52,500 bases of DNA from Qipengyuania vesicularis (GTDB lineage Bacteria; Pseudomonadota; Alphaproteobacteria; Sphingomonadales; Sphingomonadaceae). The position numbers were made by a program, and so were the translations under genes. The notes below the pieces were generated by a model. It made no database searches. It saw only the letters and a program-made list of their open reading frames with translations, and was not told the origin of the DNA. Location of the stretch: NCBI RefSeq assembly GCF_019711415.1, contig NZ_JAIGNJ010000001.1, positions 1 through 52,500 of the forward strand, in the 5' to 3' direction. Numbering within the stretch: the first letter of the stretch is position 1; each line of letters opens with the position of its first letter. Below, piece after piece: positions 4,257-20,270 of the stretch.

Positions 4257-6899
4257 TCAGTAATCGAAGCCGACCCGCAGCCCCACGGTGAGCGGGCGGT
4301 TGGTGGTGATCCGTGCGCGATCGTTGACGAAGTTGCCCGAGATCTGTGCTCGCTCATCGAACAGATTGTCGGCGTAGAGTTCGACGCTCCACTGGTCGCT
4401 CTTCACGCCTGCGGACAGGTTGGCGATCGTGTAGCTGTCAAGTTCGAGCTTGTTGATCTCGATCACATCGGTGAACTTCGATGCCGAGTACGAAACCTGT
4501 GGCTGGATGAAGGCCATCCAGTCGCTCGAAAGGTCCCATTCGTAGCGGAGACGCAGATTGCCCTGGAAGCTCGGCGCGAAAGCCAGGTCTTCACCCACGA
4601 CCACGTCTTGTGTCGGGATTAGCACCTCGGTGATTTCCGTGTCGAGGATCGAAAAAGCGCCCGCAACAGTCAGCCCCGGCACCGAGTAGGGTGCATAAGT
4701 GAAGTCGCCTTCGATACCCATGATCTCCGCATTCGCAGCGTTCGCCGAGAAGAACAGGTTGGTGATCGAGGGGTCGAAGATGGTGGTCTGCAGATTGGTG
4801 ATATCGACGTAGAAGGCGCTGCCGTTGAAACGCACCTGCCCATCGGCAAGGTCGAGCTTCCAGCCCAGCTCGTAGTTCGCCACCTCGTCGGTATCGAGCT
4901 CGTAGGGAACCGTGAAGCCGGCGCCATTGGTAGCGCCGCCGGGACGGTTGAGGAGTCCCGGTCGATAGCCTTCCGAATAGGTGCCATAAAACAGCAGGTC
5001 CGGCGTAGGCGTGTAGGTTAGCGTGCCCTTGAAGATCACGCCTTCCGCCTTCGCCACGTCGGGGGCCCCGACCGGGCCGTTGCCACCGAACTGGAACGAG
5101 ATATTCGTACCCGCCCGCTGCTGGTCGACACGCTGGTCGGCCGGGACGCCGGTGTTGGCGCCGAAGACAGGCGAGTTGAGGTTGAAGAACGAGCTGTTCG
5201 CACTGCCCGCAAGATCGACCTCGACGTTGTAGTAACGCGCGCCGCCGGTAATCGTCAGGATATCCGGCACGATGTCGAAGCTCGCCTCGCCGAAGATGCC
5301 GATCTGCTCGTCGGTCCGGAGGATGTCGTTGCGGAAAATGGTTTCGGGAGCGAACGGTCCGGGGTCGCTGAAATATCCTGCTGCGGCCGAATTGATCTCA
5401 CCCGGAGGCGCAGTGATGTCGGTCAGCGGATAGTTGGGCAGGAAGCCCGTGGTCACACCGTCCGAACCGCGCACCTGCACATTCGAGAAGTAGTTGAAGT
5501 TGTTGAGCTCTTTCAGCTCGAGATCGCTGTAGAACGCACCACCGGTGAAGCGGAAGCGCCAGTCGTCGGGCGTGCTGAAGCGCAGCTCCTGCGTGAACAC
5601 TGTCGTATCCGTAGTCGAGTCCACGGCGAGGTTCGGTGCGTAGCAGGTCGGATCTGCCGGAGCGTTGGTGACATAGCCGGGGTACACGACTGCCGTGTCG
5701 CAGATATAGTACGGCAGGTACTGTCCCACGTAGAGGTAATCGGTGTAGTCTACATTCTGCTGCGTACGGCGATCGGTATATGCGCCAGTATACACGATAT
5801 CGAGCATCGCGAGACGACCTTCGACGGTCCAGGATGTGTTCGAAAATTCGTCGTTCAGCCGGTCTTCTTCGTAGCGCTGGATCTGCAGATCATCGAGACC
5901 GTCGAGTTCCGGATCGGCGAAGAAGACCCCGTCGCTTTCCACTTCCTGCTGCGTGTGCGCGACAGTGATGGTCCAATCGGGCGTGATTTCCCAAAGCGCC
6001 GTGCCGCGGAAGCCGAGATAGCTGGTGTCGTTGAAGTCTTCCTCGACCAGCGCAGCATTGTCGGCGGCGATGAAGGTGACACCGCTGAGGTCTGCGTTCT
6101 GCTGGAAACCGGCGCGTAGCGCGCTGACCGGAACGCCATTGGCGCGGACTGTGCCTTCTGGACGGAAACGGGCGCTCTCGCTGGCATCGACCGTGCCTGC
6201 GACATTGTCGATATAGCCGCCCTGGTGCTCGTAATAGACGACCCCGCGCAAGGCGATGGTGTCGCTCACGGGCGCGTTGATCATGAACTCGCCCTTGTAG
6301 CTCGCTTCGCCGCCATCGGTGAAGGAAAGGCCTGCATCGACACTGGCGTCGAAACCGGACAGGTCGGGCTTGTTGGTGATCAGGCGAACCACACCGGCCT
6401 GCGAGCTGGCACCGAACAGCGTGCCCTGCGGACCGGAGAGGACTTCGATACGCTCCAGGTCGGCCGCGTATACGTCGAGGTTACGGCCGGGCTGCGCCAG
6501 CGGCTGCTCGTCGAGATAGAGCGACACGTTCGGGGCAAGGCCAGCCACACCGGCGGTCGTTAGGTTCGGCGTGGTCGAGGCAAGGCCGCGGATATAAATC
6601 GTGCTCTGCCCCGGGCCGCTCCCGCCGGCAGTGACGGTAGGCAGCTGCTCCAAGTAATCCTCGAACGTGTCGATACCGAGCTCGTCGAGCTGTTCCTCAC
6701 CGATCGCCGCGACCGAGACGGGCACGTCCTGCAGATCTTCGCTACGTTTCTGCGCGGTCACGACGATGGTTTGAACCCCGCCCTGGCGCTGTTGCTGCGC
6801 GGGCGCGTCGGTCTGTGCGGTGGTGTCCTGCGCGACGGCAGGTGCAGCGATGGCAATGGCGAGCGCGCTTACGGACGCGCCGCTTACAAATGTCTTCAT
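4257..6899 (-). CDS. TonB-dependent outer-membrane receptor
   Basis: This is an outer-membrane active-transport barrel of about 880 residues. The start at 6899 gives a clean signal peptide (MKTFVSGASVSALAIAIAAP, then AVAQ) and is preceded by GGGGGAA as ribosome-binding site; a longer frame upstream is not needed. After a Gln/Ala-rich linker comes the TonB box region (QTIVVTAQKRSEDLQDVPVS), the plug with YIRGLAST and IEVLSGPQGTLFG, and then a long beta-rich barrel ending in the usual aromatic residue (GLRVGFDY). The AQKRSEDLQDVPVS plug type is common among sphingomonad receptors for small organic substrates. The ligand is unknown. A 364-bp AT-rich leader lies upstream, and a TPR-sulfotransferase gene follows. 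Confidence 0.95.
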   Translation of the reverse strand: MKTFVSGASVSALAIAIAAPAVAQDTTAQTDAPAQQQRQGGVQTIVVTAQKRSEDLQDVPVSVAAIGEEQLDELGIDTFEDYLEQLPTVTAGGSGPGQSTIYIRGLASTTPNLTTAGVAGLAPNVSLYLDEQPLAQPGRNLDVYAADLERIEVLSGPQGTLFGASSQAGVVRLITNKPDLSGFDASVDAGLSFTDGGEASYKGEFMINAPVSDTIALRGVVYYEHQGGYIDNVAGTVDASESARFRPEGTVRANGVPVSALRAGFQQNADLSGVTFIAADNAALVEEDFNDTSYLGFRGTALWEITPDWTITVAHTQQEVESDGVFFADPELDGLDDLQIQRYEEDRLNDEFSNTSWTVEGRLAMLDIVYTGAYTDRRTQQNVDYTDYLYVGQYLPYYICDTAVVYPGYVTNAPADPTCYAPNLAVDSTTDTTVFTQELRFSTPDDWRFRFTGGAFYSDLELKELNNFNYFSNVQVRGSDGVTTGFLPNYPLTDITAPPGEINSAAAGYFSDPGPFAPETIFRNDILRTDEQIGIFGEASFDIVPDILTITGGARYYNVEVDLAGSANSSFFNLNSPVFGANTGVPADQRVDQQRAGTNISFQFGGNGPVGAPDVAKAEGVIFKGTLTYTPTPDLLFYGTYSEGYRPGLLNRPGGATNGAGFTVPYELDTDEVANYELGWKLDLADGQVRFNGSAFYVDITNLQTTIFDPSITNLFFSANAANAEIMGIEGDFTYAPYSVPGLTVAGAFSILDTEITEVLIPTQDVVVGEDLAFAPSFQGNLRLRYEWDLSSDWMAFIQPQVSYSASKFTDVIEINKLELDSYTIANLSAGVKSDQWSVELYADNLFDERAQISGNFVNDRARITTNRPLTVGLRVGFDY

Positions 6900-7263
6900 T
6901 TTGGAAGATTCCCCCAATTCGGACCTTGATTTTGCACCCGACCGGACGGCGGGCAAATATTCGTGATCGGGATTGAGGCACAATCCCGCTCGACGAAATC
7001 AATAGGGTCGCGATTGCAGCCCGGCCACCGTCTCCCGGGCAATTTTCCGAATGAATTGGAGTCTGTTGCGAAAGGACAACATATCCATTCTAAGGGAAGA
7101 ATAGATTAAGCTTCAAATTCGAAATCTGTTTATCAATTGTATTTTTACTTCGAAGTGTGTCATTTTACGGTTTTACGCTCAAGAGCAATTTAAAGTAGTT
7201 TCAAATAGCAATCTTTCTATTCGACGCGTTTGCGATTCTTTAGTGCAAACTCTTGTTCAGTCT
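6900..7263 (-). promoter_or_regulatory. AT-rich leader with candidate promoter for the TBDR gene
   Basis: No gene is seen in these 364 bp. About 7075-7260 is far richer in A and T than the rest of the window. On the minus strand, TTGAAG (7111-7116) and TAGAAT (7087-7092) are separated by 18 bp, a reasonable sigma70-like promoter that would leave a leader of about 180 nt before the receptor gene. ACTTCGAAGT at 7147-7156 is a perfect 10-bp palindrome just upstream and could be an operator. Both assignments are by eye. Confidence 0.35.
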
Positions 7264-8946
7264 TTACTTTGCTGCGCTCCATTCTGCACATCCTTCGGCA
7301 GTAGTCGGCACTCCGTGGCGTTTGCGCCGGATGTCGAACACCACTGCCTTGATGATGGAAATCGCCATCAGAGCGACCACAAAGGAGAACGGCAGCGCAC
7401 CGATAATCATCGTGATCCGGATCGCATCAATCCCGCCAAGGATCAGCATCGAACCGACGACGAAGGCCAATGCGGCGCCCCAGAACAGGATGTGGTAACG
7501 GCGCTGGCCCTCTGTCTCCCCCGCGCCATTGATCGTGTTCACGATCAGGATCGCACTGTCGGCCGATGTCACGAGATAGGTCATCAGCAGCAATACGACG
7601 AGCCCGGACACCACTCCCGCGACACCCGGCGACAGCAAAACCGAAAGCGTAGCGAAGAGCTGGTCCGAAATTCCGGTGCCGACGATCGAACCGCCGGCTG
7701 CACCGCTGAGCTCGAGATTGATCGCCGTTCCGCCAACCAGCGTCATCCAGACAAAGCACATGAGCGAGGGCACGAGCACAACGCCAAGGACATATTCCCG
7801 CACAGTCCGTCCGCGTGAAATGCGCGCGATGAACATCCCCACGAAGGGCGCGAATGCGATCCACCAGGCCCAGTAGAAGACCGACCAGTCGAGCTGCCAT
7901 TGCACCAGCGCATCTCCGGTCTCACCGCCGCCGGGAAACAGCGTCAGCGAATTGGGCACCAGCGTGCGGAGATAGTCCCACAGCCCGACGAACAGGTATT
8001 CCAGTCCCAGCAGGCCCGAACCCACAATTGCGAAAAGGGCCAAGAGGGCGAAGGATAGCGCCATATTGAGGTTGGACAGCCACTTGATGCCCTTGCCCAC
8101 GCCCGAAAGCGCGCTGATGGTCGAAGCTCCGACGAGCACCAGCAGTGAAATGACGACCGCCATGGCCGAAGACGACCCGTCGGAATCCAGCAGCCAGTCG
8201 CCAAGGCCAAGCCGCGCCAGGCCGGCTACGAATTGCTCGACCCCGAAGCCCATCGTGACGGCCACGCCAAGGATCGTCGCGACCACGGCGACGATGTCGA
8301 TCACATGTCCCCATATGCCCGACATGCGCAGCCCGAACAGCGGCGCCAGCGCGCTGCGGATCGTAAGGGGCAGGTTGCGGCGATAGGCGACATAGCCAAT
8401 CGCAAGCCCCACCAACGCGTAGCTGCCCCAGGCCGCGAACCCCCAGTGCAGGAAGGTGTATATATAGGCGGGCCTGACCGCTTCTGCGGACAGCGGCTCG
8501 ATCGTTCCGCGAATGATATCCGGATTGTTTGCGAAATGCGCGAGTGGCTCGCCCGTAGAATAGGTCAGCATCCCGATCCCGATGCCGGCCCCGAACAACA
8601 TGGCGAACCAGGAGAACCGCCCGAACTCCGGCGCCTCATCTTGCGCGCCGATCTTGAGGCGCCCCGATGCGGGCCACAGTGCAAGCAGGAAGCAGACGGC
8701 CATCAGCGAAGCAACCAGGTAGACATACCAGCCCGAGAAGCTGGCAATGATCGTCGAATTGGCCGCACTCAGTGTTTCGCTGGCGCTGACCGGAAAGAAG
8801 ATCGCCCACATGATGATCAGCGACACGATGATCTTCGAAGGGATCGTCACGGCCCGACTGAAACCGTCGTAAAAGCCGCGATCATGCGTATCGATGGGCA
8901 GTTCGACGAGCGGCGGCGCTACGGGAGCGTCGTCAATGGAGTGCAT
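7264..8946 (-). CDS. BCCT family betaine/choline/carnitine-type transporter
   Basis: This is a cytoplasmic-membrane symporter of 560 residues with about twelve membrane segments. Family marks are FGAGIGIGMLTYSTGEPLAH in the segment 3 region and the very conserved YWAWWIAFAPFVGMFIARIS with RGRTVREYVLG behind it. BCCT carriers import quaternary ammonium or sulfonium compounds with sodium or protons. Typical members have GLMFWGVAEP where this one has GMLTYSTGEP, so the substrate need not be betaine. The start at 8946 (MHSIDDAP) is preceded by ACAGGATG; an upstream Met at 9102 would add a polar tail. It is followed by the TBDR leader and preceded by a 284-bp gap. Confidence 0.92.
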   Translation of the reverse strand: MHSIDDAPVAPPLVELPIDTHDRGFYDGFSRAVTIPSKIIVSLIIMWAIFFPVSASETLSAANSTIIASFSGWYVYLVASLMAVCFLLALWPASGRLKIGAQDEAPEFGRFSWFAMLFGAGIGIGMLTYSTGEPLAHFANNPDIIRGTIEPLSAEAVRPAYIYTFLHWGFAAWGSYALVGLAIGYVAYRRNLPLTIRSALAPLFGLRMSGIWGHVIDIVAVVATILGVAVTMGFGVEQFVAGLARLGLGDWLLDSDGSSSAMAVVISLLVLVGASTISALSGVGKGIKWLSNLNMALSFALLALFAIVGSGLLGLEYLFVGLWDYLRTLVPNSLTLFPGGGETGDALVQWQLDWSVFYWAWWIAFAPFVGMFIARISRGRTVREYVLGVVLVPSLMCFVWMTLVGGTAINLELSGAAGGSIVGTGISDQLFATLSVLLSPGVAGVVSGLVVLLLMTYLVTSADSAILIVNTINGAGETEGQRRYHILFWGAALAFVVGSMLILGGIDAIRITMIIGALPFSFVVALMAISIIKAVVFDIRRKRHGVPTTAEGCAEWSAAK

Positions 8947-9230
8947 GGGATGATCATCCTGTCGGGCTGCGCGCTGAGGCAAGGGAAAGCGCGAACGGAT
9001 GCAATCTTGCCGCGCATGAAGGTTCACCGAAGCATAGATAACGGCCCGAACAATGCAAACTCGGCTCGGGCGGAGTGGCAGTTGTCGCACCGGGATCGCC
9101 AAGGGTTGCGTCTTGCTTCAACCGATCTTGGGAACACTAGTAGACCAGAGAAGCATGGGCGCCCTGCAATCCATGTCGGGTCGTACTCGTAAGACCGCTA
9201 TTGTTTGCATGGCGAGCTTGCCGGCTCAAT
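8947..9230. other. intergenic gap upstream of the BCCT gene
   Basis: These 284 bp separate two minus-strand genes, the tandem TetR regulator and the BCCT transporter. I see no gene, RNA or clear terminator. It presumably carries the BCCT promoter, but I could not pick one with confidence. Confidence 0.4.
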
Positions 9231-10469
9231 CTACGTGGAAATTCCGCGGAAGAAGGGGGCGAAATAGTCGGTTGCGGCGACGGTGCTGAAAGGGTTGCCG
9301 CCCATCGTGCCGACGAGGCCGGCGCTGACTGTGATATTCCGCAGGGCTGCGAGGATCAGTAGCTCGAGCTTCTCTACTTGCGTCTCGCGTCGGCTGCCCT
9401 CTTCGGAACTCTCGGCGAGGAGACGCGCCATGCGCGCAGCGATGCCTTGCCATTCGGCTTCTGCGATTGCCTCCCTCGCGCTTGGCAGTGACGTGTAGAT
9501 ACACGCCCTCAGCATGGGCTCGAGATTGGAGACGTGTTCCGAATAAAGCTTGGCCAGGCCGGCTTCGATCCTGGGGAGGACAGGGCCGGGCGCCGCATCG
9601 ATCGAATCCAGGATCGCCAGGATGCGCGCATGCGATCGCCGGGCGCAGGATTCGAGAAGCTCGTCCTTGTCGGCGAATGTGTAGTAGAATGTGCCGCGGC
9701 TGACGCCAAGGTCGTCGGCGAGGGCATTCAGGGAAAATCCGGCATAGCCGCGCTGGTTGAAGCTGCGGATGCCAGCACGCTCGAAGGCGTCGCGCTTCAG
9801 CCGGTTGCGCTCTTCCCGATTGAACAGGAGATCGGTTGTTCCGTTTGAGAGCTGGAGCGACGGCGGGTCCATGGCCTCGCTGCCCTTCGCAATGCCATCG
9901 CGCAGGAGGCGAACAAGGGCTTCGATCTGCCGTTCGTGACGCCGAGCCGGAATGGCTGCGAGCCACGGCCCGATCCAGGCAGGCATTGTCCACAATAGCA
10001 AAGTCGCGCCGCGGCTGCTCCCCTGGGACGAAGCGGAGGAAAGGAACTTCTCGATAGCTTCGAGCTGTGCTGCGATGCGGGCGGCGACCCGATTGTGTGC
10101 TGGCTCGCCCAGAGCATTCAGGTCGTTCAGAATTGCGGGCTGCGCGCGGGCGTTGATCTGCGCCTGTGACTGCATCTGGCCAACCTGCCTGATCCAGGTG
10201 CCCGCCTGCGCGATACCGCCGGTCTCTTCGCGCGCCGAGTCGATGAAGCCGTCGAGAAGATCGCAAGTTCGCATATAGGCCGCTTCGAGCAGCGCGCCTT
10301 TGGAGTCGAAATGGTAGCTGATGCTGGCCTTGGTGGCATCGAGCGCCTCGGCGATGTCTTCCAGCCGGACATCGTGAAAGCCATGCTCGTTGAACTGCGC
10401 GCTGGCCTCGGCGAGAATCAGCTCGCGCTTATCGTCTCGCTCGGCCTTGCGCAGTGTCGTTACCGCCAT
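9231..10469 (-). CDS. tandem TetR-family regulator (two DNA-binding domains)
   Basis: The protein of about 412 residues has two TetR helix-turn-helix domains in one chain. The first is near the N-terminus (RELILAEASAQFNEHGFHDV, then IAEALDATKASISYHFDSK). The second is about residues 217-280 (AFERAGIRSFNQRGYAGFSL, then LADDLGVSRGTFYYTFADK). Each is followed by an alpha-helical ligand/dimer-type region. Normal TetR proteins are about 200 residues and work as dimers, so this chain may act as a pseudo-dimer. Start 10469 is my choice; 10478 in the same frame is equally possible, and AGGA lies awkwardly for both. It is divergent from a TBDR gene with an inverted repeat around that gene's promoter, so it is probably the repressor of the TBDR/SLC13/lyase genes. 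Confidence 0.9.
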   Translation of the reverse strand: MAVTTLRKAERDDKRELILAEASAQFNEHGFHDVRLEDIAEALDATKASISYHFDSKGALLEAAYMRTCDLLDGFIDSAREETGGIAQAGTWIRQVGQMQSQAQINARAQPAILNDLNALGEPAHNRVAARIAAQLEAIEKFLSSASSQGSSRGATLLLWTMPAWIGPWLAAIPARRHERQIEALVRLLRDGIAKGSEAMDPPSLQLSNGTTDLLFNREERNRLKRDAFERAGIRSFNQRGYAGFSLNALADDLGVSRGTFYYTFADKDELLESCARRSHARILAILDSIDAAPGPVLPRIEAGLAKLYSEHVSNLEPMLRACIYTSLPSAREAIAEAEWQGIAARMARLLAESSEEGSRRETQVEKLELLILAALRNITVSAGLVGTMGGNPFSTVAATDYFAPFFRGIST

Positions 10470-10545
10470 GCTGCACATCTTTCCTGAGAGACCCCCAAGC
10501 ACAAGCGGGAAATGATCCGCTGCGCAAAAACTGAACGAGGTGTAC

Positions 10546-10581
10546 AAACTTCCTTGACTGGGTTCAAGTTTCCCGTAGCTT
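10546..10581 (+). promoter_or_regulatory. promoter inside an inverted repeat, likely TetR operator
   Basis: TTGACT (10554-10559) and TAGCTT (10576-10581) are 16 bp apart and form a good sigma70-like promoter for the receptor gene starting at 10611. AAACTT (10546-10551) and AAGTTT (10566-10571) are an exact inverted pair with a 14-bp spacer that encloses the -35 box. Operator over promoter next to a divergent TetR gene is the classic repressor layout. TGTACA at 10541-10546 is another small palindrome at its edge. Confidence 0.5.
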
Positions 10582-10610
10582 CAGGCCCAAGAAAGAACGG
10601 GGAGGATCAC

Positions 10611-13600
10611 ATGAATTTTCGACGCACTTCGCTTCTGTGCGGATCGGCGCTCGCTCTGGCGGCAATGGTCGGGGCGACACCGCTAGCGGCACAGCAGGCA
10701 AACGAGGGTGAGGAGGCCGACGATACGGTCGCTTCCGACGCCGCCGAAGAGGATGAGGACGATCTTATCATCGTTACGGGTTCTCAGATTCGTGGGGCCC
10801 GGATCGACGATGTGCTTCCGGTCACGCGTGTCGACGAAGAGCAGATCGAAGCGATCAATCCGGGTTCGGGCGACGAGCTGTTCCGGGCGATTCCGCAGGC
10901 GGGCTTCGTCGCTTTCAACGAGCAGAATACGACCGGTGGTATCAATGGCGTGCGCGGCGACGTGGCTTCGATCAACCTGCGCGCCCTGGGAACGGGCAAT
11001 ACCCTGCTGTTGCTGAATGGTCGCAGGATGGTGAACGACCCCGGTTTCCAGACCGAACTGCTGGTGCCGGTGGTTTCCCCCGACACCAACACCATCAGCC
11101 CGGGCAGCGTGCGCCGGGTGGAAGTGCTGCGCGACGGCGCATCGGCCATTTACGGCGCGGATGCGGTAGCCGGTGTGGTCAACACCGTGCTCAAGGGGGG
11201 ACTGGATGGCGGGTTCCTCCAGGCGAACTATCGCCTCTCCGATGGCATCGGATTGTACAATTTCAGCCTGCGTGGCGGGATCGGCTTCGATTTCAACGAT
11301 GGCCGGACGAACTTCACGGTTTACGGCAACTACTTCCATGAGAATGGGGCGCCTGCCAGCGACCGCTTCTATTCGCGCAGCAGCGATCGCCGTTTCGACC
11401 CACGACTGGTCGGCACGCCCTACGAGCAGGACACCAATTTCCGTAACACGTCGACGTTCACGCCCTGGGGGCAGTTTGATATCCAGGGTTCCGGAGCGCG
11501 GACAGCGACGGACATTGGTGACGACGACTTCCAGATCCAGCCAGACAGTTTCAGCGGGTGCCGGCTTGACCTTGGCAACGGTATCTGTGCCGACAATGGC
11601 ACCTCCGTCGATGTCGCCCTGCGTTACGACCTCGACGCCGATCGCGACCTCTATTCGGAAAAGGATCGCTACAATTTCAGCACCTTGCTGACCCATGAGT
11701 TCGGAGCTGGTCTCGAGCTCTACTGGGAAGGATCCTACTATCGTTCCGAAAGCAATCGCCAGAGCCAGGGTAGCGCGCTTCTCAGCGCTGTTCCCATCGG
11801 CATTTCGCGGGATGCCTACTGGAACCCGTTCGGCGCGGAGTTCTTCCCCGACGGCTCACCCAATCCGAACCGCCTGCAGAGCGGCATTGACGGCGTCGGG
11901 CCTGACGGGCGCGACGTCATTCTGGAGCGCTATCGCGTCCTCGATGCGGGGCTGCGCCAGATTGAGGTGACCAAGGACGTCTACCGCGCCGTGCTCGGCC
12001 TGCGCGGTGAATTCGGGGCGTGGGATTTCGACACGGGCTTCCTCTATAGTCACGCCAACAAGACAGACCTGACCCGCAATCGGATTTCGAACACCGCGTT
12101 CCAGGATGCGATCAACCGCTCTACCCCGGACGCCTACAATCCGTTCAACGGAGGCTGCTATTTCCCCGATCGCGAGGTGGCGCCTGCCAATGGCGATTGC
12201 ACGCCAAATGCGGAATCCATTCTCGACGGCATCCGCATCGACGTTTTCCGCAAGGGTGAGACCACGCTTGCGCTCTGGGACTTCAAGGTATCGCGTGACG
12301 ATCTCTTCACCCTGCCGGGTGGACCAGTCGGCATCGCCACCGGCATCGAGTTCCGGCGCGAGACATTCGAGGATGATCGCGATCCGCGCCTCGATGGCAC
12401 GATAACCTTCACCGATTCCGTTACCGGAGACTTCTTCGGCAGCGACGTGATGAATTCGAGCCCGTCCCCGGACACGAGCGGCGATCGGAACGTCTATTCT
12501 GGCTTCGCGGAAGTCTTCGTCCCGCTCGTGTCGGACGATATGGACATTCCTCTGATCCAGAATCTGAGCATCCAGCTGGCCGGGCGCTTCGAACGTTTCG
12601 ACGACATCAAGGAAACCGCAATAGTCCCGCGTGTCGCGGCGTCTTGGTCGCTATTCGACAGCCTCATGGTCCGCGGCGCCTGGTCGCAGGGTTTCCGCGC
12701 ACCGAACCTGGTGCAGGTGAACGATCTTGGTACGACCCGCGTGAACACGCGTGACGATTACGTGCGCTGCTATGCCGAGATCCTCCAGGGCGATATCGAT
12801 ACGTTCGACGATTGCACGGGCACCGGCACTGTCAGCCTGCGGACGGGTACGAACGTGCTCAAACCGGAGGATACAGAGAGCATCAATGTCGGCGTGGTCG
12901 TCACCCCGACATTCCTGCCCGGCCTGACGCTCACTGCCGATTACTGGCGCGTCGAGCAGAAAGGTATCGTCGGGGTATTCGGGGATGACAATGCGCTGGC
13001 GCTGGATCTCTTGCGCCGACTGCAGGGTTCGACCAACCCCAACGTCATCCGCGACACGCCCGATCAGGACCGGATCGACCTGTTCGCTGGTACCGGGCTC
13101 GACCCGGCAGGCGATGTCATCCAGGTGCTCGATCCCTATCGCAATCTCGACAGCCGGATCGTCAAGGGTTGGGACTTCGGGATGGATTATCAGATACCCG
13201 ATTTCGGTGCCGGCGATTTCAGCCTGCAGTTCAATGCCGCCTTGCTCGATAGCTTCTTCCAGTCGCCGGGTCCGGACGGTCAGGAATTGCTTGATGCAGT
13301 GGCCGACGGCACGCTGCCAGAGAGCATCGTGATCGACAATATCGGCGAGCAGCGCGAACAGAACGGGCGTCCGAAATGGCGCTGGACCGGCGGGGTCAAC
13401 TGGCGCTCCGGTCCGGTGCGAGTCACCTGGTTCGGCCGCTACGTTGGCGGGGTCTACGATTCCAGCGTCACGCAGAATGCGACCGACATCAACGGCAATG
13501 CCAACCCCGATCCGGGAGCGCTCTATCGCGTGGACGACTGGTTCACCATGAATGCGGCGATCAGTTACACCATCGAGAACGGAACTGCGATCGATGGCAC

Positions 13601-13733
13601 CCGCCTGCGGTTCGGGGTGAACAACATCACCGGTGAAGCGCCGCCTCTTGCCGACCAAAGCTATGGCTTCTTCAGCGGACTTCACAATGCCCGCGGACGT
13701 CAATTCACTTTCGAAATTCGCAAGAACTTCTAA
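10611..13733 (+). CDS. TonB-dependent outer-membrane receptor, large type
   Basis: This outer-membrane receptor has about 1040 residues. The start at 10611 is preceded by GGGGAGGATC and gives a signal peptide ending LAAQQ. An acidic linker (EGEEADDTVASDAAEEDEDD) leads to the TonB-box-like DLIIVTGSQIRGARID. The plug carries INLRALGTGNTLLLLNGRR and VEVLRDGASAIYGADAVAGV, and the barrel ends in FEIRKNF with terminal Phe. This plug type marks the large receptors common in sphingomonads and xanthomonads. It heads a likely operon with an SLC13 carrier and an exported lyase, so its ligand is probably a compound that the lyase can cleave. A hairpin follows the stop codon. Confidence 0.95.
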   Translation: MNFRRTSLLCGSALALAAMVGATPLAAQQANEGEEADDTVASDAAEEDEDDLIIVTGSQIRGARIDDVLPVTRVDEEQIEAINPGSGDELFRAIPQAGFVAFNEQNTTGGINGVRGDVASINLRALGTGNTLLLLNGRRMVNDPGFQTELLVPVVSPDTNTISPGSVRRVEVLRDGASAIYGADAVAGVVNTVLKGGLDGGFLQANYRLSDGIGLYNFSLRGGIGFDFNDGRTNFTVYGNYFHENGAPASDRFYSRSSDRRFDPRLVGTPYEQDTNFRNTSTFTPWGQFDIQGSGARTATDIGDDDFQIQPDSFSGCRLDLGNGICADNGTSVDVALRYDLDADRDLYSEKDRYNFSTLLTHEFGAGLELYWEGSYYRSESNRQSQGSALLSAVPIGISRDAYWNPFGAEFFPDGSPNPNRLQSGIDGVGPDGRDVILERYRVLDAGLRQIEVTKDVYRAVLGLRGEFGAWDFDTGFLYSHANKTDLTRNRISNTAFQDAINRSTPDAYNPFNGGCYFPDREVAPANGDCTPNAESILDGIRIDVFRKGETTLALWDFKVSRDDLFTLPGGPVGIATGIEFRRETFEDDRDPRLDGTITFTDSVTGDFFGSDVMNSSPSPDTSGDRNVYSGFAEVFVPLVSDDMDIPLIQNLSIQLAGRFERFDDIKETAIVPRVAASWSLFDSLMVRGAWSQGFRAPNLVQVNDLGTTRVNTRDDYVRCYAEILQGDIDTFDDCTGTGTVSLRTGTNVLKPEDTESINVGVVVTPTFLPGLTLTADYWRVEQKGIVGVFGDDNALALDLLRRLQGSTNPNVIRDTPDQDRIDLFAGTGLDPAGDVIQVLDPYRNLDSRIVKGWDFGMDYQIPDFGAGDFSLQFNAALLDSFFQSPGPDGQELLDAVADGTLPESIVIDNIGEQREQNGRPKWRWTGGVNWRSGPVRVTWFGRYVGGVYDSSVTQNATDINGNANPDPGALYRVDDWFTMNAAISYTIENGTAIDGTRLRFGVNNITGEAPPLADQSYGFFSGLHNARGRQFTFEIRKNF

Positions 13734-13739
13734 ACACCA

Positions 13740-13770
13740 CGGAGCGGGCGGTCCTAGGCCGCTCGCTCCG
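13740..13770 (+). terminator. strong hairpin after the TBDR gene
   Basis: A 12-bp stem (13740-13751 with 13759-13770, one mismatch) closes a 7-nt loop directly after the receptor stop codon and 81 bp before the SLC13 gene. The following run is not T-rich. It may be a partial terminator or an RNA-stabilising structure that makes receptor mRNA more abundant than carrier and lyase mRNA. Confidence 0.5.
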
Positions 13771-13851
13771 CATTCTCACGTAGCATTTTCCCGTTGTCGC
13801 CGCACCCGGACAGGGCACGGGCACTGTCGGGAAGCAGGGTAGGACGGCTGG

Positions 13852-15324
13852 ATGACCACCACTGATGCGGGCCCGAGGTCGGACATTGCGCTTCACCAGC
13901 GTATCGGCCTCGTACTGGGGCCGGTTGCTGCCCTTGGACTTCTTGCGTTCTTCCATCCCGAGGGCTTGTCGGAAGCGGGCGTCAGGACGGCCGCCATCGC
14001 CGCACTAATGGCGATCTGGTGGGGCACCGAGGCGGTCCCAATCTCGGTGACGGCATTCCTTCCGATGGTCCTTTTCCCGTTTCTCGGCGTCCTGCCGATG
14101 GCCGAGACTGCACCGCTCTACGCCCATCCGATCATCTACCTGTTCTTCGGGGGCTTTGTCATGGCGCTCGCCATCGAACGATCGGGGCTCCACCGGAGGG
14201 TCGCACTTCGCATCTTCCACCTCGCCGGGATGGACGGCCGATCCCTGATCGGCGGTTTCATGCTCGCGGCAGCGCTAATCAGCATGTGGATTTCCAACAC
14301 CTCCACGGCGTTGATGCTGCTGCCGATCGCCATGTCGGTCATCGTCGTGATCCGGGAGGGGATGAGCGAACTAACCCCGGTCCAGCGCTCCGATTTCGAG
14401 ACTGCCCTGCTCCTGGGCCTTGCTTACGGCGCGACGCTGGGCGGTGTTGCGACGCTGGTTGGCACGCCTCCCAATGCTTTCATGTCGGGCTTCCTCGAAA
14501 GCAATTATGGCATCACGATCGATTTTGCGCGCTGGATGCTGGTCGGCGTGCCGGTCACGGTTATCATGCTGCCACTGACATGGATCGTGTTGACGCGGCT
14601 CGTGTTCAAGGTCGGCTTCCGATCCACCGACGACGCGCGTGCACACCTCGCCCGGCTGGGTAGCGATCTGGGGAAGGCGACCACCGCGGAGAAGCGCGTG
14701 GGCATCCTTTTCCTGGTACTTGTCGCCGCGTGGATCCTGCGCTCGCCGCTCGAGGGGAGACTTGGTCTCGAAGGTGTTACCGACGCCGGTATCGCGATGG
14801 CTGTGGCACTTGCAGCATTCATCCTGCCGGCCGGATCGCGGAGCGGCGCGCTAGTGTGCTGGGAAGATACGCGCGACCTGCCGTGGGGCGTGCTCATACT
14901 GTTCGGCGGTGGTCTCGCGCTGGCTGGAGCGATGACCCAGTCCGGCTTGACCCAATGGATCGGCCAGTCGCTGGCGCCGCTTGGTGCAATCAATATCGCG
15001 GTTCTTGTGGTGGCCGCGACGCTGCTGGTGATTTTCCTCACCGAACTGACCAGCAACCTCGCGACCACTGCGACGTTTCTGCCGGTCATGGCAGCCGTTG
15101 CGGTCGAAACGGGCCAGGACCCGCTGCTCTTCGTGGTGCCGGTCACCCTCGCTGCCAGCTGCGCCTTCATGCTTCCCGTGGCCACTCCGCCCAATGCGAT
15201 CGTCTTCAGTTCGGGTTCGGTTTCCATCCCACGAATGATGCGCGCGGGCGTCGTGCTCAACCTTATCGGCGTTGCGGTGCTGACGGTGGTTTCGCTCTAT
15301 CTCGTCCCGATGGTTTTCGGCTAG
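13852..15324 (+). CDS. SLC13/DASS family anion symporter
   Basis: This cytoplasmic-membrane carrier has 490 residues and about eleven or more hydrophobic segments. The first DASS substrate motif is intact (SMWISNTSTALMLLP, SNT at 148-150). The second has SNL at 401-403 (LTSNLATTATFLP), in place of the SNT seen in best-known members. GTPPNAF and ATPPNAIVF are the matching loops of the two repeats. Family members import C4 dicarboxylates, citrate or sulfate, usually with sodium. The lyase gene starts 9 bp after its stop, which indicates cotranscription and probably coupled translation. An enzyme of the fumarate-releasing superfamily next door favours fumarate or a related dicarboxylate as substrate; this is inference. 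Confidence 0.93.
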   Translation: MTTTDAGPRSDIALHQRIGLVLGPVAALGLLAFFHPEGLSEAGVRTAAIAALMAIWWGTEAVPISVTAFLPMVLFPFLGVLPMAETAPLYAHPIIYLFFGGFVMALAIERSGLHRRVALRIFHLAGMDGRSLIGGFMLAAALISMWISNTSTALMLLPIAMSVIVVIREGMSELTPVQRSDFETALLLGLAYGATLGGVATLVGTPPNAFMSGFLESNYGITIDFARWMLVGVPVTVIMLPLTWIVLTRLVFKVGFRSTDDARAHLARLGSDLGKATTAEKRVGILFLVLVAAWILRSPLEGRLGLEGVTDAGIAMAVALAAFILPAGSRSGALVCWEDTRDLPWGVLILFGGGLALAGAMTQSGLTQWIGQSLAPLGAINIAVLVVAATLLVIFLTELTSNLATTATFLPVMAAVAVETGQDPLLFVVPVTLAASCAFMLPVATPPNAIVFSSGSVSIPRMMRAGVVLNLIGVAVLTVVSLYLVPMVFG

Positions 15325-15333
15325 ACGCGCGAT

Positions 15334-16743
15334 ATGGCAAGGCTTCGCGCTACGACCCGTTTCCTTGCAGGCGTAGCAGCCTGCCTGGCCTTTTCGACAT
15401 CTGCTCTTGCGCAGGAAGACGTCGCCGAGATCTTCGAACAGGCAGAGACCAACCGCCTCGTCATGGAGGTCGAGGTCGCAATTGCGCGGGCACAAGCCGA
15501 TCTTGGGATAATTCCGAAAGATGCTGCCGACGAAATAGCTCGCACCGCAAATCCTGAAACGGTCTCGGTAGAGGAGTGGAGGGCGGAGTACGATGTTGTC
15601 CGTCACCGGCTCGTGGCGCTGCTCAACGTCTGGCGCCGTTCGCTGTCGCCTGAAGCAAGCAACGCCCTGCATTTCGGCCCGACGACAGTGGACATCTACG
15701 ATGCAGTCATGGTCCTCCAGTTACGTCGCAGTATCCAGAGCCTGAGAGAACGTATGTTCGCGAACGAGCGCGCCATGATCGCGCTGGCGCAGGAACATCG
15801 CGATACGCCGATGGTCGGGCGCACTCTCGGCCAGCACGCTCTGACGATTACCTTTGGCAAGAAGGTGGCCGTGTGGGCAGATGCGAACCGCAGGAATATC
15901 GATCGTCTGGGTGCGGTCCATTGTCGCCTCGGACGTCTCGGCGTGGTCAAGGGCGCGGTGGGAACCCATCTAGGTCTCGGCGATCAGGCGGTCGAGGTGG
16001 AGCAGCGAGCGGCTGCCTATCTCGGGCTTGGTCCTCTATACCCAGCGGATTGGCACGGGATGCGCGATGTCTTTGCGGAGTATGCCATGACGCTGGCGCT
16101 GGTTGCTCGCGTGAATGCGGGGATCGGGCAGGAGGTATTCATGCTCCAGATGACCGATATCGGCGAGGTTTACGAGGAACGTCCTGGCGATGCAGTCAGC
16201 AGCAGTACGATGCCGCACAAGCGCAATCCCAGTCGCTCGGAAAGCCTCATGCACCTGGGCCGCACTATACCTGCCCAAGCGAGCGTCCTGGTCGACGATG
16301 TCGCAAATTTCTTCGAGCGCGATAACACCTCGCACCCCAACCGTTCGCTCGAGCAGATATCGATCGATGCTGCGGCCAGCGTCCGGGACCTCTCGGTCCT
16401 GCTGCGCCGCCTGCAGGTCGACCCGGACAGGATGCGGGCAAATCTGGGGCAGACCGACGGGATGATCCTCGCCCAGCGCATCGTCTTCGACCTGAAGGAC
16501 GTGATCGGCAAGGATCGTGCCGAGGAGCATGTCGCCCAGGCGGCGCAGCGCTCGCTGACAACCGGCAGGTCGTTCCGCGACGAGCTACTGGCGGATGCCG
16601 TTCTGGCCCCTCATCTCGAAGGACGCATCGATAGCCTTCTCGATTATTCGACCTATCTCGGCGACGCATCGGGGCAGGTCGAGCGGACCATCGCGATGCT
16701 CGAGGCAGCCCGGCCGGAGCTGGAGTGCGCTACCCGGCCATAA
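15334..16743 (+). CDS. aspartase/fumarase-superfamily lyase (PcaB/PurB-like) with signal peptide
   Basis: The 469-residue protein matches the adenylosuccinate lyase / 3-carboxymuconate cycloisomerase branch. Conserved blocks are LHFGPTTVDIYDAV (112-125), TPMVGRTLGQHALTITFGKK (158-177) and the signature SSSTMPHKRNPSRSE (289-303), with the catalytic serine loop kept. The family start aligns with AEIFEQAETNRL from residue 31, and before it sits a classic Sec signal peptide (Arg-rich start, hydrophobic core, STSALA then QE, cut after residue 26). VAAC at 14-17 is a weaker lipobox alternative. Relatives are cytosolic, so an exported member is unusual. The His of the usual GRTHxQ motif is Leu165. 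The reaction is probably a beta-elimination or its relative on a succinyl- or carboxy-substituted compound in the periplasm; the substrate is unknown. Its 3' end overlaps the convergent PEP-CTERM gene by 14 bp. Confidence 0.88.
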   Translation: MARLRATTRFLAGVAACLAFSTSALAQEDVAEIFEQAETNRLVMEVEVAIARAQADLGIIPKDAADEIARTANPETVSVEEWRAEYDVVRHRLVALLNVWRRSLSPEASNALHFGPTTVDIYDAVMVLQLRRSIQSLRERMFANERAMIALAQEHRDTPMVGRTLGQHALTITFGKKVAVWADANRRNIDRLGAVHCRLGRLGVVKGAVGTHLGLGDQAVEVEQRAAAYLGLGPLYPADWHGMRDVFAEYAMTLALVARVNAGIGQEVFMLQMTDIGEVYEERPGDAVSSSTMPHKRNPSRSESLMHLGRTIPAQASVLVDDVANFFERDNTSHPNRSLEQISIDAAASVRDLSVLLRRLQVDPDRMRANLGQTDGMILAQRIVFDLKDVIGKDRAEEHVAQAAQRSLTTGRSFRDELLADAVLAPHLEGRIDSLLDYSTYLGDASGQVERTIAMLEAARPELECATRP

Positions 16744-17806
16744 GCTCCGAGGAACCTGCCTTCCTCTTGCGCTCACGCCTCGCGAGCCCCCCGATCGCAA
16801 AGAACCCGAGCAGCAACATCAGCCAGGTCGAAGGCTCGGGCACTGCGCCGCCGGGTCCGCGATAATTAGTACCATAGGTCACAGTACCCGTTGGCCCGGA
16901 TGGCAGGGGCGGAGGGGCATCCACCTGTACAAATTGGTAGAAGACCTGGAACGGGTCGAATTCGGCGCCTACCGCGGGTGTCAACGGATCGTCCGTCGCA
17001 TTAAGCAACGAGGCGAATGATGCGAAGCTGTCGGCGCTCATGCTTGCAAGGGCGTTGATGCCCCCAGCGTTCCTCGGATCGCCGAATGCGACCTGGAAGC
17101 TCTCGCATAGGGTGGGATCCGCGCAATCGGGCTGCGACGTCGCGATTGTCAGGATCGAAGTGTAAGTCAGCACGGTCGACAGTCCCGGGCCGAGCGTTGC
17201 CAGCGGGAGCGAGAGGTCGGTCGCGCTCCAGTCGAGTACGTCCCATTCAGGATCGGAATTGGTGTCGTAGAGGAGGTTGTTGAAGCTCGAACCGTCGCTG
17301 GTGTTGAGCGTCAGCGGGGCGGTCGTCGCATCTCCGTCGGCAGAATAAATCAGGCCTTGGCGTATGCCCTGCTCCTGGGAGACGGTAAAATCGAAGCTGG
17401 CCACCGAATTCGAGCCGTCTTCCAGGAAGGAGTTGGCCAGGTGGCCTGGAGTGATCTGGGAATCGAAACGCAGGTCGACCGGATCCGAACCGAGGTTGGT
17501 CAGGAAGAAGGTGACCTCGGTGATCATCGTGATCGAGCACACGCCCACGCATGCTCCGTCCTGGAGGAAGAAGAAGCTTCCGCTGTCGAGCGTCCCCGTC
17601 AGCGAGAGTCCCATCTCCGAAACCCCTCCGGTATCGGAGACTACCGAGCGGTCGATTTCCGTCGTGCCGCCATTATCCGAACCAGAGCCCGATTGATCAC
17701 CAACCTGATAGTCGTATCGGTTGGTGATCGTCGCGGTTTCGACGACCTGGGCCGCGATAGCCGTGGGTGACGCCAAGAGCGCCAGGCCTAATATCGTCTT
17801 CCTCAT
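16730..17806 (-). CDS. PEP-CTERM sorting-signal protein
   Basis: This exported protein has 358 residues. The start at 17806 (MRKTILGLALLASP) has AAGGGA six bases upstream and gives a signal peptide ending IAAQ. The body is Ser/Thr/Asp/Gly-rich and beta-like, with two Cys in ACVGVC that may form a disulfide. The C-terminus is a full PEP-CTERM tail: PEPSTWLMLLLGFFAIGG followed by a basic cluster (RRERKRK). Such tails are cut by an exosortase, which is not in this window. It is the last gene of a three-gene run behind the TIR-TPR gene (39-bp gap) and may be a surface or extracellular-matrix protein. No enzyme motif is visible. Confidence 0.88.
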   Translation of the reverse strand: MRKTILGLALLASPTAIAAQVVETATITNRYDYQVGDQSGSGSDNGGTTEIDRSVVSDTGGVSEMGLSLTGTLDSGSFFFLQDGACVGVCSITMITEVTFFLTNLGSDPVDLRFDSQITPGHLANSFLEDGSNSVASFDFTVSQEQGIRQGLIYSADGDATTAPLTLNTSDGSSFNNLLYDTNSDPEWDVLDWSATDLSLPLATLGPGLSTVLTYTSILTIATSQPDCADPTLCESFQVAFGDPRNAGGINALASMSADSFASFASLLNATDDPLTPAVGAEFDPFQVFYQFVQVDAPPPLPSGPTGTVTYGTNYRGPGGAVPEPSTWLMLLLGFFAIGGLARRERKRKAGSSELMAG

Positions 17807-17845
17807 CACATTCCCTTTCAAGTCCCATTGCGATTGGCGTTGATG

Positions 17846-19744
17846 TCACCTGCTGGCAGCAAGCCTTCCATCTCGCGCGATTGCGTTGCAGTTCGCCTTG
17901 GTGTCGGCCAAGGTCTCGCTTCCCATGTCCAATTGCGCCTGCATCTGCAGCGCCTGCTGGCACTGCTCATGCGCGATGCCCCGCTCGCCGCGCTGCGTAT
18001 TTATCCGTGACCTCAGAAGCAGCAATTCGGCCTGGTCCGGGTCCATCGGACCGTAGGATGCGGTGTAGACCTGTTCGACCTCCCGGGTCAGGCCGAGTGC
18101 CTTGTCGAACTGTCGATCCAGACCCAGGGTTTCGGCGAGGTAAAAGTTCACATCGGCTACCGCCGGATTGTCGGCGGAATAGACATCGGTGAAGATCTCG
18201 CGTGCCTTGCCGAACGCCGTGATCGCTTCGGAGTATTCCTTCCGCGCCGTGTAGATCCTGCCGAGCAGCAGGTAGGCGACGGCGAGGCCGGGATGGTCCG
18301 CTTCGAGCACTTTTCGATAGACGCCCAACGCCTTTTCCATGCGCGGGCCGGCGCTTTCCACATCGCCTGCCGAAAGACTTGCGAAGGCCTGATTGTGGAG
18401 GGCCTTGGCGGTCCTCACGTCGAACTCTCCATAGGCACGGCTGTAACGCGCGTAGGCCTCGTCATAGAGGGGCATCGCCTCATCATATTGACCCGCCTGG
18501 ACCAGTGCATAAGCCTGATCCATCAGGGCGCGCCCGATCGGCAACGTATTGTCGCCAGCCAGTTCCTTGAAGGTCGCCACGCTGCTCGCGTAAAGATCGG
18601 CGGCGTCATCATAGTCCGCCTTCAGATATGCGATGTTGGCGCGCTGACTGTAGAGAGTCGCTTCGACAACTCCGTCGTTTGTCCCTGCTTCGCGATGTGC
18701 CCGATTTGCCCTTGAAACAAGGCTCTCGAGCTCTTCGAGATCGCCGCGCTGCTTGGCCAGTTCCGCCAGCCTGAGCAATGTGCGCGCCCGACCTGAACCG
18801 TCATCGGGCTCAAGCTCAAGTGCGCGATTGAGGTCACGCGTGGATTCTTCGTAGAGGCCGAGATTGTAGTAGATATCGCCCGTCGTCCTCAGGAGTGTGG
18901 CGGCCACCCTGGGCCGCCCCGCAAACTCGGACATCGCGCGATTGCTGGCCCGGTCGAGAACGGTCAGCGCGGTGATGGTGCGCGGGTTCTCCGTCGCCGG
19001 ATTGGCAACTTCGAAGGTGCCCGTCAGGAATTCGAGGCTGCTTTCGGCCAGATCGCGCTCCTCGACCGCAATCCGCCTCTGCTCATTGGCATAAATGGCG
19101 AGGCCCAGCGTGACGACTGCCACCGCGGTCGAGGCTGCCATGTAGGCGAACATGCGGCGCTGGCGCCGGGCGAGGTCGCGGCGGACGAGCGCGTCCAGCG
19201 GCAGGCCGGTTATCCCGGCCAGCACTTTCAGCTTGGCGAGACGCCGCCCGTCCTTGCCAGAACGGATATCGGCTGCGATCGGCTCTGCAGGGGTGTTCGA
19301 GATATTCCCTTCGGCATCGAGCTTGAAGCGCAGCGCCGGTGGGAAGCATTCGTCGTCTTTGCCAGAGTATGGTTCGCCAGATGCGATCAACGCAAGGGTT
19401 CGGCCCTCGCCATGCGCCTGCTTGTAGAGGCGGATTTCCTCGTTCACCCAGAAGGAATTGGCGGCAGCAGGCGAGCAGACCACTATCTGGAAGCGCGATG
19501 CCAAGAGAGCATTGCGCAGATCATCGCCGAGATCGCCGCTGGCGGCCAGTTCATCCCTGTCGCGGAATACGTGAGGGAGCTTTCGGGGGAGCGGACCGTG
19601 TGGTGTCTCAGTTCCGATGACCGCCTTAGGGAAGCGATAGGATTCGATCGCCCGGTGCAGCCATTTGGCGATTTCCTCATCGCTATGGCTGTAGCTGATG
19701 AATGCGGAAAAGCGTTCCTCGGCAGATGGCTCGTTCCCGCTCAT
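17846..19744 (-). CDS. TIR-domain protein with one membrane segment and TPR repeats
   Basis: The protein has 632 residues. The TIR domain (about 10-160) has FISYSHSD (15-22), VFRDRDELAASGDLG (59-73) and CSPAAANSFWVNEEIRLYK (90-108), keeping the Glu after Trp99 (E102/E103) that is catalytic in NAD-cleaving TIR proteins. A membrane segment at about 199-218 follows (MAASTAVAVVTLGLAIYA). Residues about 280-610 are tandem TPRs. This places the TIR domain in the cytosol and probably the TPRs in the periplasm, if a single crossing is right. TIR domains of this type either degrade NAD, make cyclic ADP-ribose signals, or act as adaptors. It sits 13 bp behind one PEP-CTERM gene and 39 bp before another, suggesting one operon. 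Confidence 0.92.
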   Translation of the reverse strand: MSGNEPSAEERFSAFISYSHSDEEIAKWLHRAIESYRFPKAVIGTETPHGPLPRKLPHVFRDRDELAASGDLGDDLRNALLASRFQIVVCSPAAANSFWVNEEIRLYKQAHGEGRTLALIASGEPYSGKDDECFPPALRFKLDAEGNISNTPAEPIAADIRSGKDGRRLAKLKVLAGITGLPLDALVRRDLARRQRRMFAYMAASTAVAVVTLGLAIYANEQRRIAVEERDLAESSLEFLTGTFEVANPATENPRTITALTVLDRASNRAMSEFAGRPRVAATLLRTTGDIYYNLGLYEESTRDLNRALELEPDDGSGRARTLLRLAELAKQRGDLEELESLVSRANRAHREAGTNDGVVEATLYSQRANIAYLKADYDDAADLYASSVATFKELAGDNTLPIGRALMDQAYALVQAGQYDEAMPLYDEAYARYSRAYGEFDVRTAKALHNQAFASLSAGDVESAGPRMEKALGVYRKVLEADHPGLAVAYLLLGRIYTARKEYSEAITAFGKAREIFTDVYSADNPAVADVNFYLAETLGLDRQFDKALGLTREVEQVYTASYGPMDPDQAELLLLRSRINTQRGERGIAHEQCQQALQMQAQLDMGSETLADTKANCNAIARDGRLAASR

Positions 19745-19757
19745 TGCGCGTCGATCG

Positions 19758-20270
19758 CTATGATGTAAGCGGTTTGGAAGCGATGGCGCGACGGCGGCGA
19801 AGTAGGCCGGCGAGCAGGAAGAAGCCCGTCAGGATCATGAGCCAGGCTTCCGGCTCCGGAACGGCAGCGCCAAGATCAGTCGCGGTGAGCGAGAACTTCA
19901 GACTGTCGTCGGTGTAGCCCACGAGGTCGAAATTCCCCGACAGCAGATTGGGGGCGTTGTTCGGGCCGGTAAACAGCGTAGGCCCCGCCAGGTCATACTG
20001 CGTGCCCAAGATCACCAGGCCGCCATCGCTGTACTCGTAGACGAAACCGATGTCGGCAATCTGGACGACCGAATTCACGGTAACGTTCACACTGCGGAAA
20101 ATGAAACCGTCTGGCTGGGCATCGAAAACCAGGGCGTCGGTATCGATGGTGAAGCTGATCGTGTCGTTGCCAGTCAACTGGTAGAGGAATTGTGCCGCGT
20201 GCGCGGGTGCTGGCAGGGTTGCCACCGAAGCAACCAAGCCTGCTGTCAAGAAACCACGTAGAGATCGCAT
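19758..20270 (-). CDS. small PEP-CTERM protein
   Basis: This exported protein has 170 residues. The signal peptide (MRSLRGFLTAGLVASVATLP, then APAHA) is followed by a short beta-rich body of about 110 residues without cysteines. The tail AVPEPEAWLMILTGFFLLAG plus LLRRRR is a clear PEP-CTERM exosortase signal. It is first of the PEP-CTERM/TIR/PEP-CTERM run, with only 13 bp to the TIR gene, so coexpression is likely. The body is not recognisable. Confidence 0.88.
   Translation of the reverse strand: MRSLRGFLTAGLVASVATLPAPAHAAQFLYQLTGNDTISFTIDTDALVFDAQPDGFIFRSVNVTVNSVVQIADIGFVYEYSDGGLVILGTQYDLAGPTLFTGPNNAPNLLSGNFDLVGYTDDSLKFSLTATDLGAAVPEPEAWLMILTGFFLLAGLLRRRRAIASKPLTS

Follow-up and report, generated by a model that had tools for sequence, protein, structure and literature searches.

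Gram-negative bacteria possess TonB-dependent polymer-utilization loci, in which a TonB-dependent receptor (TBDR) is combined with exported depolymerases, an inner-membrane carrier and a regulator. PurB, a member of the fumarase/aspartase superfamily, eliminates fumarate from succinylaminoimidazolecarboxamide ribotide (SAICAR), itself an N-acyl-aspartate, and elimination of fumarate from another N-acyl-aspartate would be the same bond change. Here we describe a locus of Qipengyuania vesicularis that belongs to a kind with the same part types as these polymer-utilization loci, but with peptide-type rather than glycan-type enzymes and with the addition of a fumarase-superfamily lyase predicted to be exported. 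It lies in a window of 52,500 nucleotides, the whole stretch of DNA analyzed (assembly GCF_019711415.1, contig NZ_JAIGNJ010000001.1, positions 1–52,500, forward strand). The lyase resembles PurB (TIGR00928) in its fold family, its ADSL_C domain, its SSxMPxKxNP loop and its HERD/FERD-like motif; it differs in scoring under the cut-off of that model, in its signal peptide and TTVD signature and in lacking a His at position 165. With PcaB (NF006554, TIGR02426) it shares a similar length and a GRTxxQ motif that, like that of 1q5n, has no PurB-type His, whereas it falls under both cut-offs and has a signal peptide and peptidase-type neighbors.

An exported lyase of this superfamily has a precedent, since the proteins detected in the Achromobacter periplasmic fraction include three predicted Tat substrates annotated as “argininosuccinate lyase”, according to the available text of that study (PMC11533796); these belong to the same superfamily by name only, and are Tat rather than Sec substrates. 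A preliminary description of the window, made from its sequence alone, had known of no described pathway with such a lyase outside the cytosol. Poly(aspartic acid) hydrolase-1 (PahZ1) is known from Sphingomonas sp. KT-1 and from Pedobacter sp. KP-2, and homologs of it are encoded close to the lyase or elsewhere in a lyase-bearing genome; the available portion of the paper describing these enzymes names no lyase, TBDR or carrier alongside (PMC4456602). Among the matches listed, no open-license PMC paper names a Sec-exported, TBDR-linked lyase family in its title or the start of its abstract; likewise, no open-license PMC paper matched an aspartase or PurB that is exported or periplasmic, and for iminodisuccinate plus lyase there was no title on an enzyme among such papers.

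We propose, with a probability of roughly one half, that the exported lyase acts in the periplasm on imported (isoaspartyl) peptides of the poly- or oligo-aspartate type, releasing fumarate from their L-aspartyl units, and that the SLC13 carrier encoded beside it takes up the fumarate. The preliminary description had favored succinyl- or carboxymuconate-type substrates that leave an amine or aromatic remainder. We instead shift the substrate to aspartyl and isoaspartyl peptides because the annotated genes recurring beside the lyase code for homologs of PahZ1, for peptidases (M14 among them), for an N-acyl-D-amino-acid deacylase and for the D-amino-acid dehydrogenase DadA.

Domain scans recovered all four genes of the original account, namely TetR, TBDR, the SLC13/DASS carrier and, after a gap of 9 bp, the lyase; its tandem TetR is borne out as two TetR_N domains, with the refinement that both belong to one protein from a single open reading frame (ORF) rather than to two genes. 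The proposed superfamily was likewise recovered: Lyase_1 (PF00206) scores 106.3 bits against a gathering cut-off of 27 and ADSL_C 42.1 against 32.7, and the SSxMPxKxNP loop, which we take to be catalytic, is kept. None of the 12 matched NCBIfam models reaches its cut-off for the lyase, including those for PurB (TIGR00928, 247 vs 326.2 bits), PcaB (NF006554, 256 vs 595; TIGR02426, 202.1 vs 355.75), the 3-sulfopropionylcysteine synthase XcbD (NF052536, 298.1 vs 600) and aspartate ammonia-lyase (NF008909, 37.7 vs 510). Among solved structures, its nearest kin are 3c8t, 1q5n and trans-aconitate decarboxylase. The genome of Q. vesicularis codes for two further proteins with Lyase_1 matches; one of these (L002) is presumably PurB-like, to judge from its motifs, and the exported lyase is therefore probably not the housekeeping enzyme.

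In a tree of 121 rows (L001, L061, L077 and L087 being left out), the 85 exported rows form a single clade with a support of 0.87 and a stem of 0.52, apart from the controls. The exported lyase family, as defined here by the combination of a signal peptide, the TTVD signature and membership in this one clade, includes the lyase of the window. Four loci, L041, L044, L056 and L059, recur as L126, L127, L125 and L128, and these duplicates are contained in the 78 scanned loci, the 87 motif rows and the 85 tree rows given here; the 38 “other” rows of the motif alignment include L087, which is itself a member of the exported clade. Beyond the invariant loop residues (Table 1), the E, R and D of the FERD motif are retained in 86 of the 87 exported rows, and position 165 is occupied by Leu in 74, Ile in 7 and Arg in 6 of them.

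The N-terminus that had been described as a Sec signal peptide passes our rule-based test, which predicts it to be MARLRATTRFLAGVAACLAFSTSALA, with the mature protein beginning at QED. That homologs share this feature is equally evident: the Sec rule is passed by 104 of the best 120 of the 1665 homologs found. The 16 failures comprise 7 that solely lack a K/R ahead of a good hydrophobic core and 9 without a recognized core, among them P0066, whose start is truncated. In a more lenient scan, with every start codon tried, 74 of 78 exported-clade loci pass (the 78 including four second copies of loci already counted), as against 9 of 37 same-superfamily control loci, which come from a class-wide search dominated by other superfamily members and serve as controls only. 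The four exported-clade failures are L061, which is truncated, L016 and L071, which look signal-like by eye, and L037. The last of these, a Dethiosulfatarculus lyase (L037:9944–11308), lacks a signal peptide yet lies inside the exported clade, and has no labeled partner gene nearby. The lyase of the window is thus predicted to work in the periplasm and, judged from its sequences, export is a trait of the family.

We then consider the gene neighborhoods. The genome collection furnished 79 loci, 72 of the exported clade and 7 of an actinobacterial outgroup, to which the locus of genome G663 (L124) was added, giving 73 exported-clade loci. Each was followed as far as its contig goes, up to about 10 kb per side, truncated contigs (e.g., L061, L077) included; the neighbor labels stand for broad clusters derived from these loci themselves and named from one or a few representatives each, and the clade bins were hand-assigned from the tree, every unassigned locus being placed in the SAR86/SAR92/Porticoccaceae bin. 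On this basis, a TBDR lies near the lyase in 50/73 loci, a DASS carrier in 34/73, a DctA/GltP-like SDF carrier in 11/73, and one or the other carrier in 41/73. The earlier idea of a cleave-and-import system survives, albeit with an isoaspartyl or poly-aspartate-type peptide as its more likely substrate, and the adjacency of lyase and SLC13 genes that it invoked holds in part, DASS being near the lyase in those 34 loci.

PahZ1 is present in 29/73 loci and M14 in 25/73 (either in 37, both in 17), accompanied by the double TetR regulator (16/73), gamma-glutamyltranspeptidase (GGT; 7/73), N-acyl-D-amino-acid deacylase (11/73), DadA (10/73) and an extracytoplasmic function (ECF) sigma factor (10/73), which is adjoined by FecR in L022, L023 and L042. 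None of the counted neighbor types occurs in the 7 actinobacterial outgroup loci, a weak control as these are Gram-positive. The PahZ1 label derives from the match of the L007 copy to PDB 6ve6 (E 8e-65), and the PahZ1 homolog of Q. vesicularis used as query recovers the same 29 loci at 33–52% identity, the Hyphomicrobium-type copies being lowest (33–36%). PahZ1 is found in several separate subclades: the window’s own, Maricaulis, Erythrobacter and Hyphomicrobium, plus L057 and L074. The nearest relatives of the deacylase are D-aminoacylase and N-acyl-D-glutamate deacylase, and GGT, M28 or S41 peptidase-type genes are seen among the gamma-proteobacterial lyase loci.

A signal test at the first start of the neighboring genes is passed by PahZ1 (17/25), M14 (18/22), deacylase (8/9) and GGT (8/8); it is only suggestive, because DadA also passes (6/11). 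A scan at every start discriminates weakly, as it also passes DadA (10/11) and the membrane carriers DASS (30/31) and SDF (10/11), but only 1/15 LysR and 2/13 TetR proteins. Several further features of these neighborhoods were observed. In 5 Hyphomicrobium-type loci, an 851-aa protein (L028:6348–8903) is encoded ahead of PahZ1 and the lyase; three of these five copies pass the signal rule, and the one copy scanned has no Pfam match. Seven lyase loci contain a member of a small protein cluster (L020:8959–9780, with a DUF4886 match; L144:13856–14620) close to the lyase, and the cluster also turns up beside DASS in two loci of the same genus that have no lyase. The TBDR of the Thalassotalea locus (L020:12515–15544) seems split over three ORFs.

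The Q. vesicularis genome itself encodes, away from the lyase, a PahZ1 homolog with a signal peptide (C4:126449–127384; E 6e-70 to PDB 6ve6), its sole match, and a lipoprotein-type M14 (C1:351086–352306). Within the family sample, the lyase most similar to that of the window (62% identity) is encoded in G663, whose locus combines a double TetR, a 1040-aa ORF at the TBDR position (without a label in L124), DASS, M14 and the lyase. We searched 397 family genomes, with candidates scored per genome limited to 2 for the TBDR, 4 for the lyase and M14 and 5 for PahZ1, such that copies can be missed; the lyase was found in 8, PahZ1 in 26, M14 in 48 and the window TBDR type (at least 60% identity) in 47. 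With relatedness ignored, M14 is present in 8/8 lyase genomes (Fisher p 2.6e-8), the TBDR type in 7/8 (p 1.6e-6) and PahZ1 in 6/8 (p 1.1e-6). The M14 figure is partly linkage, because M14 lies within the lyase locus in 6/8 genomes, whereas PahZ1 is unlinked to the lyase in 5 of its 6.

The TBDR type is itself tied to M14: in the same family, M14 lies within 3 kb of it in 40/51 copies, as against 0/41 for TBDRs below 60% identity. Among 12 further stretches around the window TBDR type, M14 adjoins the TBDR in 11 and none bears a lyase label; some carry SDF, frequently accompanied by a two-component system plus an esterase or PahZ1, others the deacylase and DadA, and DASS is found in the lyase-less stretches of G618 and G639. 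Since these two keep the rest of the set without the lyase, the lyase is, on this comparative reading, an optional part of a peptide-type uptake system whose last component is again a carrier of the dicarboxylate or acidic-amino-acid type.

Taken as a mechanism, the TBDR would bring an oligomer through the outer membrane, exported PahZ1 would cleave the beta-linked chains and the M14 peptidase would trim isoaspartyl bonds. D-residues would, in loci of the Erythrobacter type, fall to the deacylase, DadA and SDF, and L-residues to the lyase, acting by beta-elimination. The most likely substrate class would be an N-acyl-L-aspartate, such as beta-di-aspartate, yielding fumarate and an amide such as asparagine; import of the fumarate by the SLC13 carrier would pull the reversible lyase reaction forward. 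Q. vesicularis would rely on the PahZ1 and M14 whose genes lie outside this locus. In the available text on the Pedobacter PahZ1, the enzyme cleaves beta-tri(Asp) but not beta-di(Asp) and requires an L-unit at one subsite (PMC4456602), and one M14 family comprises isoaspartyl dipeptidases for cyanophycin dipeptides (PMC10206079, available text), to which we liken the M14 of these loci by name and not by sequence. In its most specific form, which we put forward with low confidence, the lyase would be a putative periplasmic beta-aspartyl-aspartate (N-acyl-aspartate) lyase that opens an isopeptide by beta-elimination rather than hydrolysis, to give fumarate and asparagine, within a system for TonB-dependent utilization of poly- or iso-aspartate. 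Cyanophycin was also considered as a substrate in view of the M14 dipeptidases (PMC10206079, same text); no arginine-pathway gene was noticed among the annotated recurring clusters, with no search aimed at one. Peptidoglycan peptides were considered too, on a weak MpaA match.

Several observations weigh against release of fumarate from such peptides. The His equivalent to position 165 probably protonates the leaving group in PurB; the Leu, Ile or Arg found there in the exported family, as opposed to His in 22/38 others, argues against departure of an amide with the help of a general acid, and Leu165 is the weakest point of an amide-cleaving mechanism. The locus in the window has no PahZ1 or M14 (no PahZ1 ORF between 9231 and 16743), and the lyase is absent from 9/10 genus genomes searched; the same-genus genomes G618 and G639 keep TBDR, M14, deacylase, DadA and DASS without it. 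The 20 loci binned as SAR86/SAR92/Porticoccaceae (e.g., L033, L039, L043) have no DASS, SDF, PahZ1 or M14 match, with one M28-cluster and 8 TBDR-cluster matches among them; of the other 53, 12 lack both DASS and SDF and 16 both PahZ1 and M14, some of their contigs being short. The PahZ1-type proteins bear a resemblance to LpqC as well (155 bits vs 222 for PahZ1) and the exact GHSAG motif occurs in just 16/25 members of their cluster; by these features they may be esterases of wider scope. Finally, at most 10 loci have genes of the ECF sigma/FecR type close to the TBDR, which would equally suit a metal-chelate receptor.

The alternative that survives best, doubtful as we hold it, is a periplasmic aspartase: hydrolases would first free L-aspartate, which the lyase would deaminate to fumarate and ammonia, the carrier importing the fumarate. 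It fits the same neighborhood evidence and escapes the difficulty with Leu165, which would suit a leaving group without need of a general acid. However, the lyase is closest to the XcbD-, PurB- and PcaB-type models and far under the cut-off for aspartate ammonia-lyase, and the SDF carriers could import aspartate directly.

An ester substrate appears unlikely. Here the lyase would eliminate a carboxylate, in a reversal of the PcaB reaction, from a malate ester or polyester (O-acyl malate, polymalate) or from another polycarboxylate, and the Leu165 shared with the actinobacterial outgroup loci, in place of the PurB His, would agree with it. PahZ1 resembles the depolymerases of polyhydroxybutyrate, as far as the available text goes (PMC4456602). 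Moreover, an esterase homolog adjoins the TBDR in 6 of the 12 further TBDR-type loci, 5 of the 6 passing the signal rule, though none of these 12 is a lyase locus. Against an ester, the M14, GGT, M28, deacylase and DadA neighbors indicate amides and amino acids.

Superfamily lyases acting on ethylenediaminedisuccinate (EDDS) exist and TBDRs often import metal chelates, so that the TBDR might import an aspartate-built aminopolycarboxylate of the iminodisuccinate, EDDS or aspergillomarasmine type, from which the lyase would split off fumarate. Weak matches to siderophore-receptor models, all far under cut-off, together with the ECF sigma and FecR genes counted above, lean toward such metallophore or chelator processing. 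We nevertheless regard it as very improbable: PahZ1 and the peptidases would be superfluous for such small chelators, and no metal regulator or ABC importer figures among the annotated recurring clusters, none having been specifically searched for. Least likely of all is the preliminary description’s own version, that aromatic or succinyl conjugates unconnected with aspartate polymers are split in the periplasm, which has superfamily membership and the dicarboxylate-type carrier in its favor, whereas the PcaB cut-offs are unmet and no aromatic-pathway gene appears among the annotated recurring clusters (no search being aimed at such genes) while peptidase-type genes recur.

Table 1. Features of the exported-lyase locus of Q. 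vesicularis (window coordinates; residue numbers are those of the lyase)
Feature	Position	Strand	Evidence
Double TetR-type regulator	9231..10469	-	PF00440 in 2 stretches, 95.5 bits
TonB-dependent receptor (TBDR), 1040 aa	10611..13733	+	Plug and barrel; passes signal-peptide rule
RNA hairpin in the TBDR–carrier intergenic region	13740..13770	+	-28.4 kcal/mol, z -5.5, without T tail
SLC13/DASS carrier	13852..15324	+	TIGR00785 (dass) 289.2 bits, above cut-off of 198.6
Predicted exported fumarase-superfamily lyase (PcaB/PurB-like)	15334..16743	+	PF00206 and PF10397 above cut-off
Sec-type signal peptide of lyase (predicted)	15334..15411	+	Predicted cut after residue 26 (between ALA and QED), rule-based test
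Family signature TTVD, residues 117-120	15682..15693	+	Val119 in 87/87 exported rows; Gln in 31/38 others
GRTLGQHA, residues 162-169	15817..15840	+	Leu165 where 22/38 other rows have His
Presumed catalytic loop SSSTMPHKRNP, residues 289-299	16198..16230	+	S290, S291, K296, N298 invariant in 87/87 exported rows
Family signature FERDNTS, residues 327-333	16312..16332	+	Alignment

As for the remaining features of the locus, the TetR reading frame on the minus strand stays open to 10547 (9231–10547), with the likely ATG start at 10469. The very stable hairpin behind the TBDR gene, which is not among the results of the terminator scan, perhaps separates the expression of the TBDR and carrier genes. 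The closest solved kin of the carrier include SLC13A2, SLC13A3, SLC13A5 and VcINDY, di- and tricarboxylate transporters being among them, but also SLC13A1; the carrier is a putative C4-dicarboxylate importer. The locus looks mosaic, because its TBDR is 56–62% identical to those of the Erythrobacter-type lyase loci and only 35–44% to those of its own lyase clade (compared in L007, L011 and L025), while its DASS carrier is nearest its own clade (69–70% in L007, L009 and L010). Horizontal transfer of the lyase gene was considered because of its patchy distribution (8/397 family genomes, 1/10 genus genomes); the GC content is even over the whole locus.

Of the flanking genes, a BCCT betaine/choline-type carrier (7264–9102, minus strand) adjoins the double TetR gene and was dropped as a part of the module: its homologs occur in 27/41 genus genomes, the present one counted, with no match in the lyase loci searched, and it is probably unrelated. 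Upstream of the module lies a second TBDR, a 908-aa ORF (4257–6983, minus strand). On the other side, at 16730–20270 on the minus strand, two predicted exported proteins flank a 632-aa protein (17846–19744). The tails of the two, with VPEP, a hydrophobic segment and arginines, are presumably PEP-CTERM-like; the start of the 632-aa protein looks TIR-domain-like by eye, with homologs in 3/41 genus genomes, the present one counted.

Should the proposed release of fumarate from aspartyl peptides hold, these loci would constitute a TonB-dependent system of Gram-negative bacteria for utilizing aspartate polymers or isoaspartyl peptides, in which a fumarase-superfamily lyase has moved to the periplasm. 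Material containing D- and iso-aspartate is poorly handled by ordinary peptidases, and the system would offer an uptake route for it. It would also provide a natural role for the PahZ1-type enzymes, which, in the available text, have so far been studied on man-made polyaspartate (PMC4456602). Lastly, the lyase would add a further, non-hydrolytic means of breaking a peptide-like bond.

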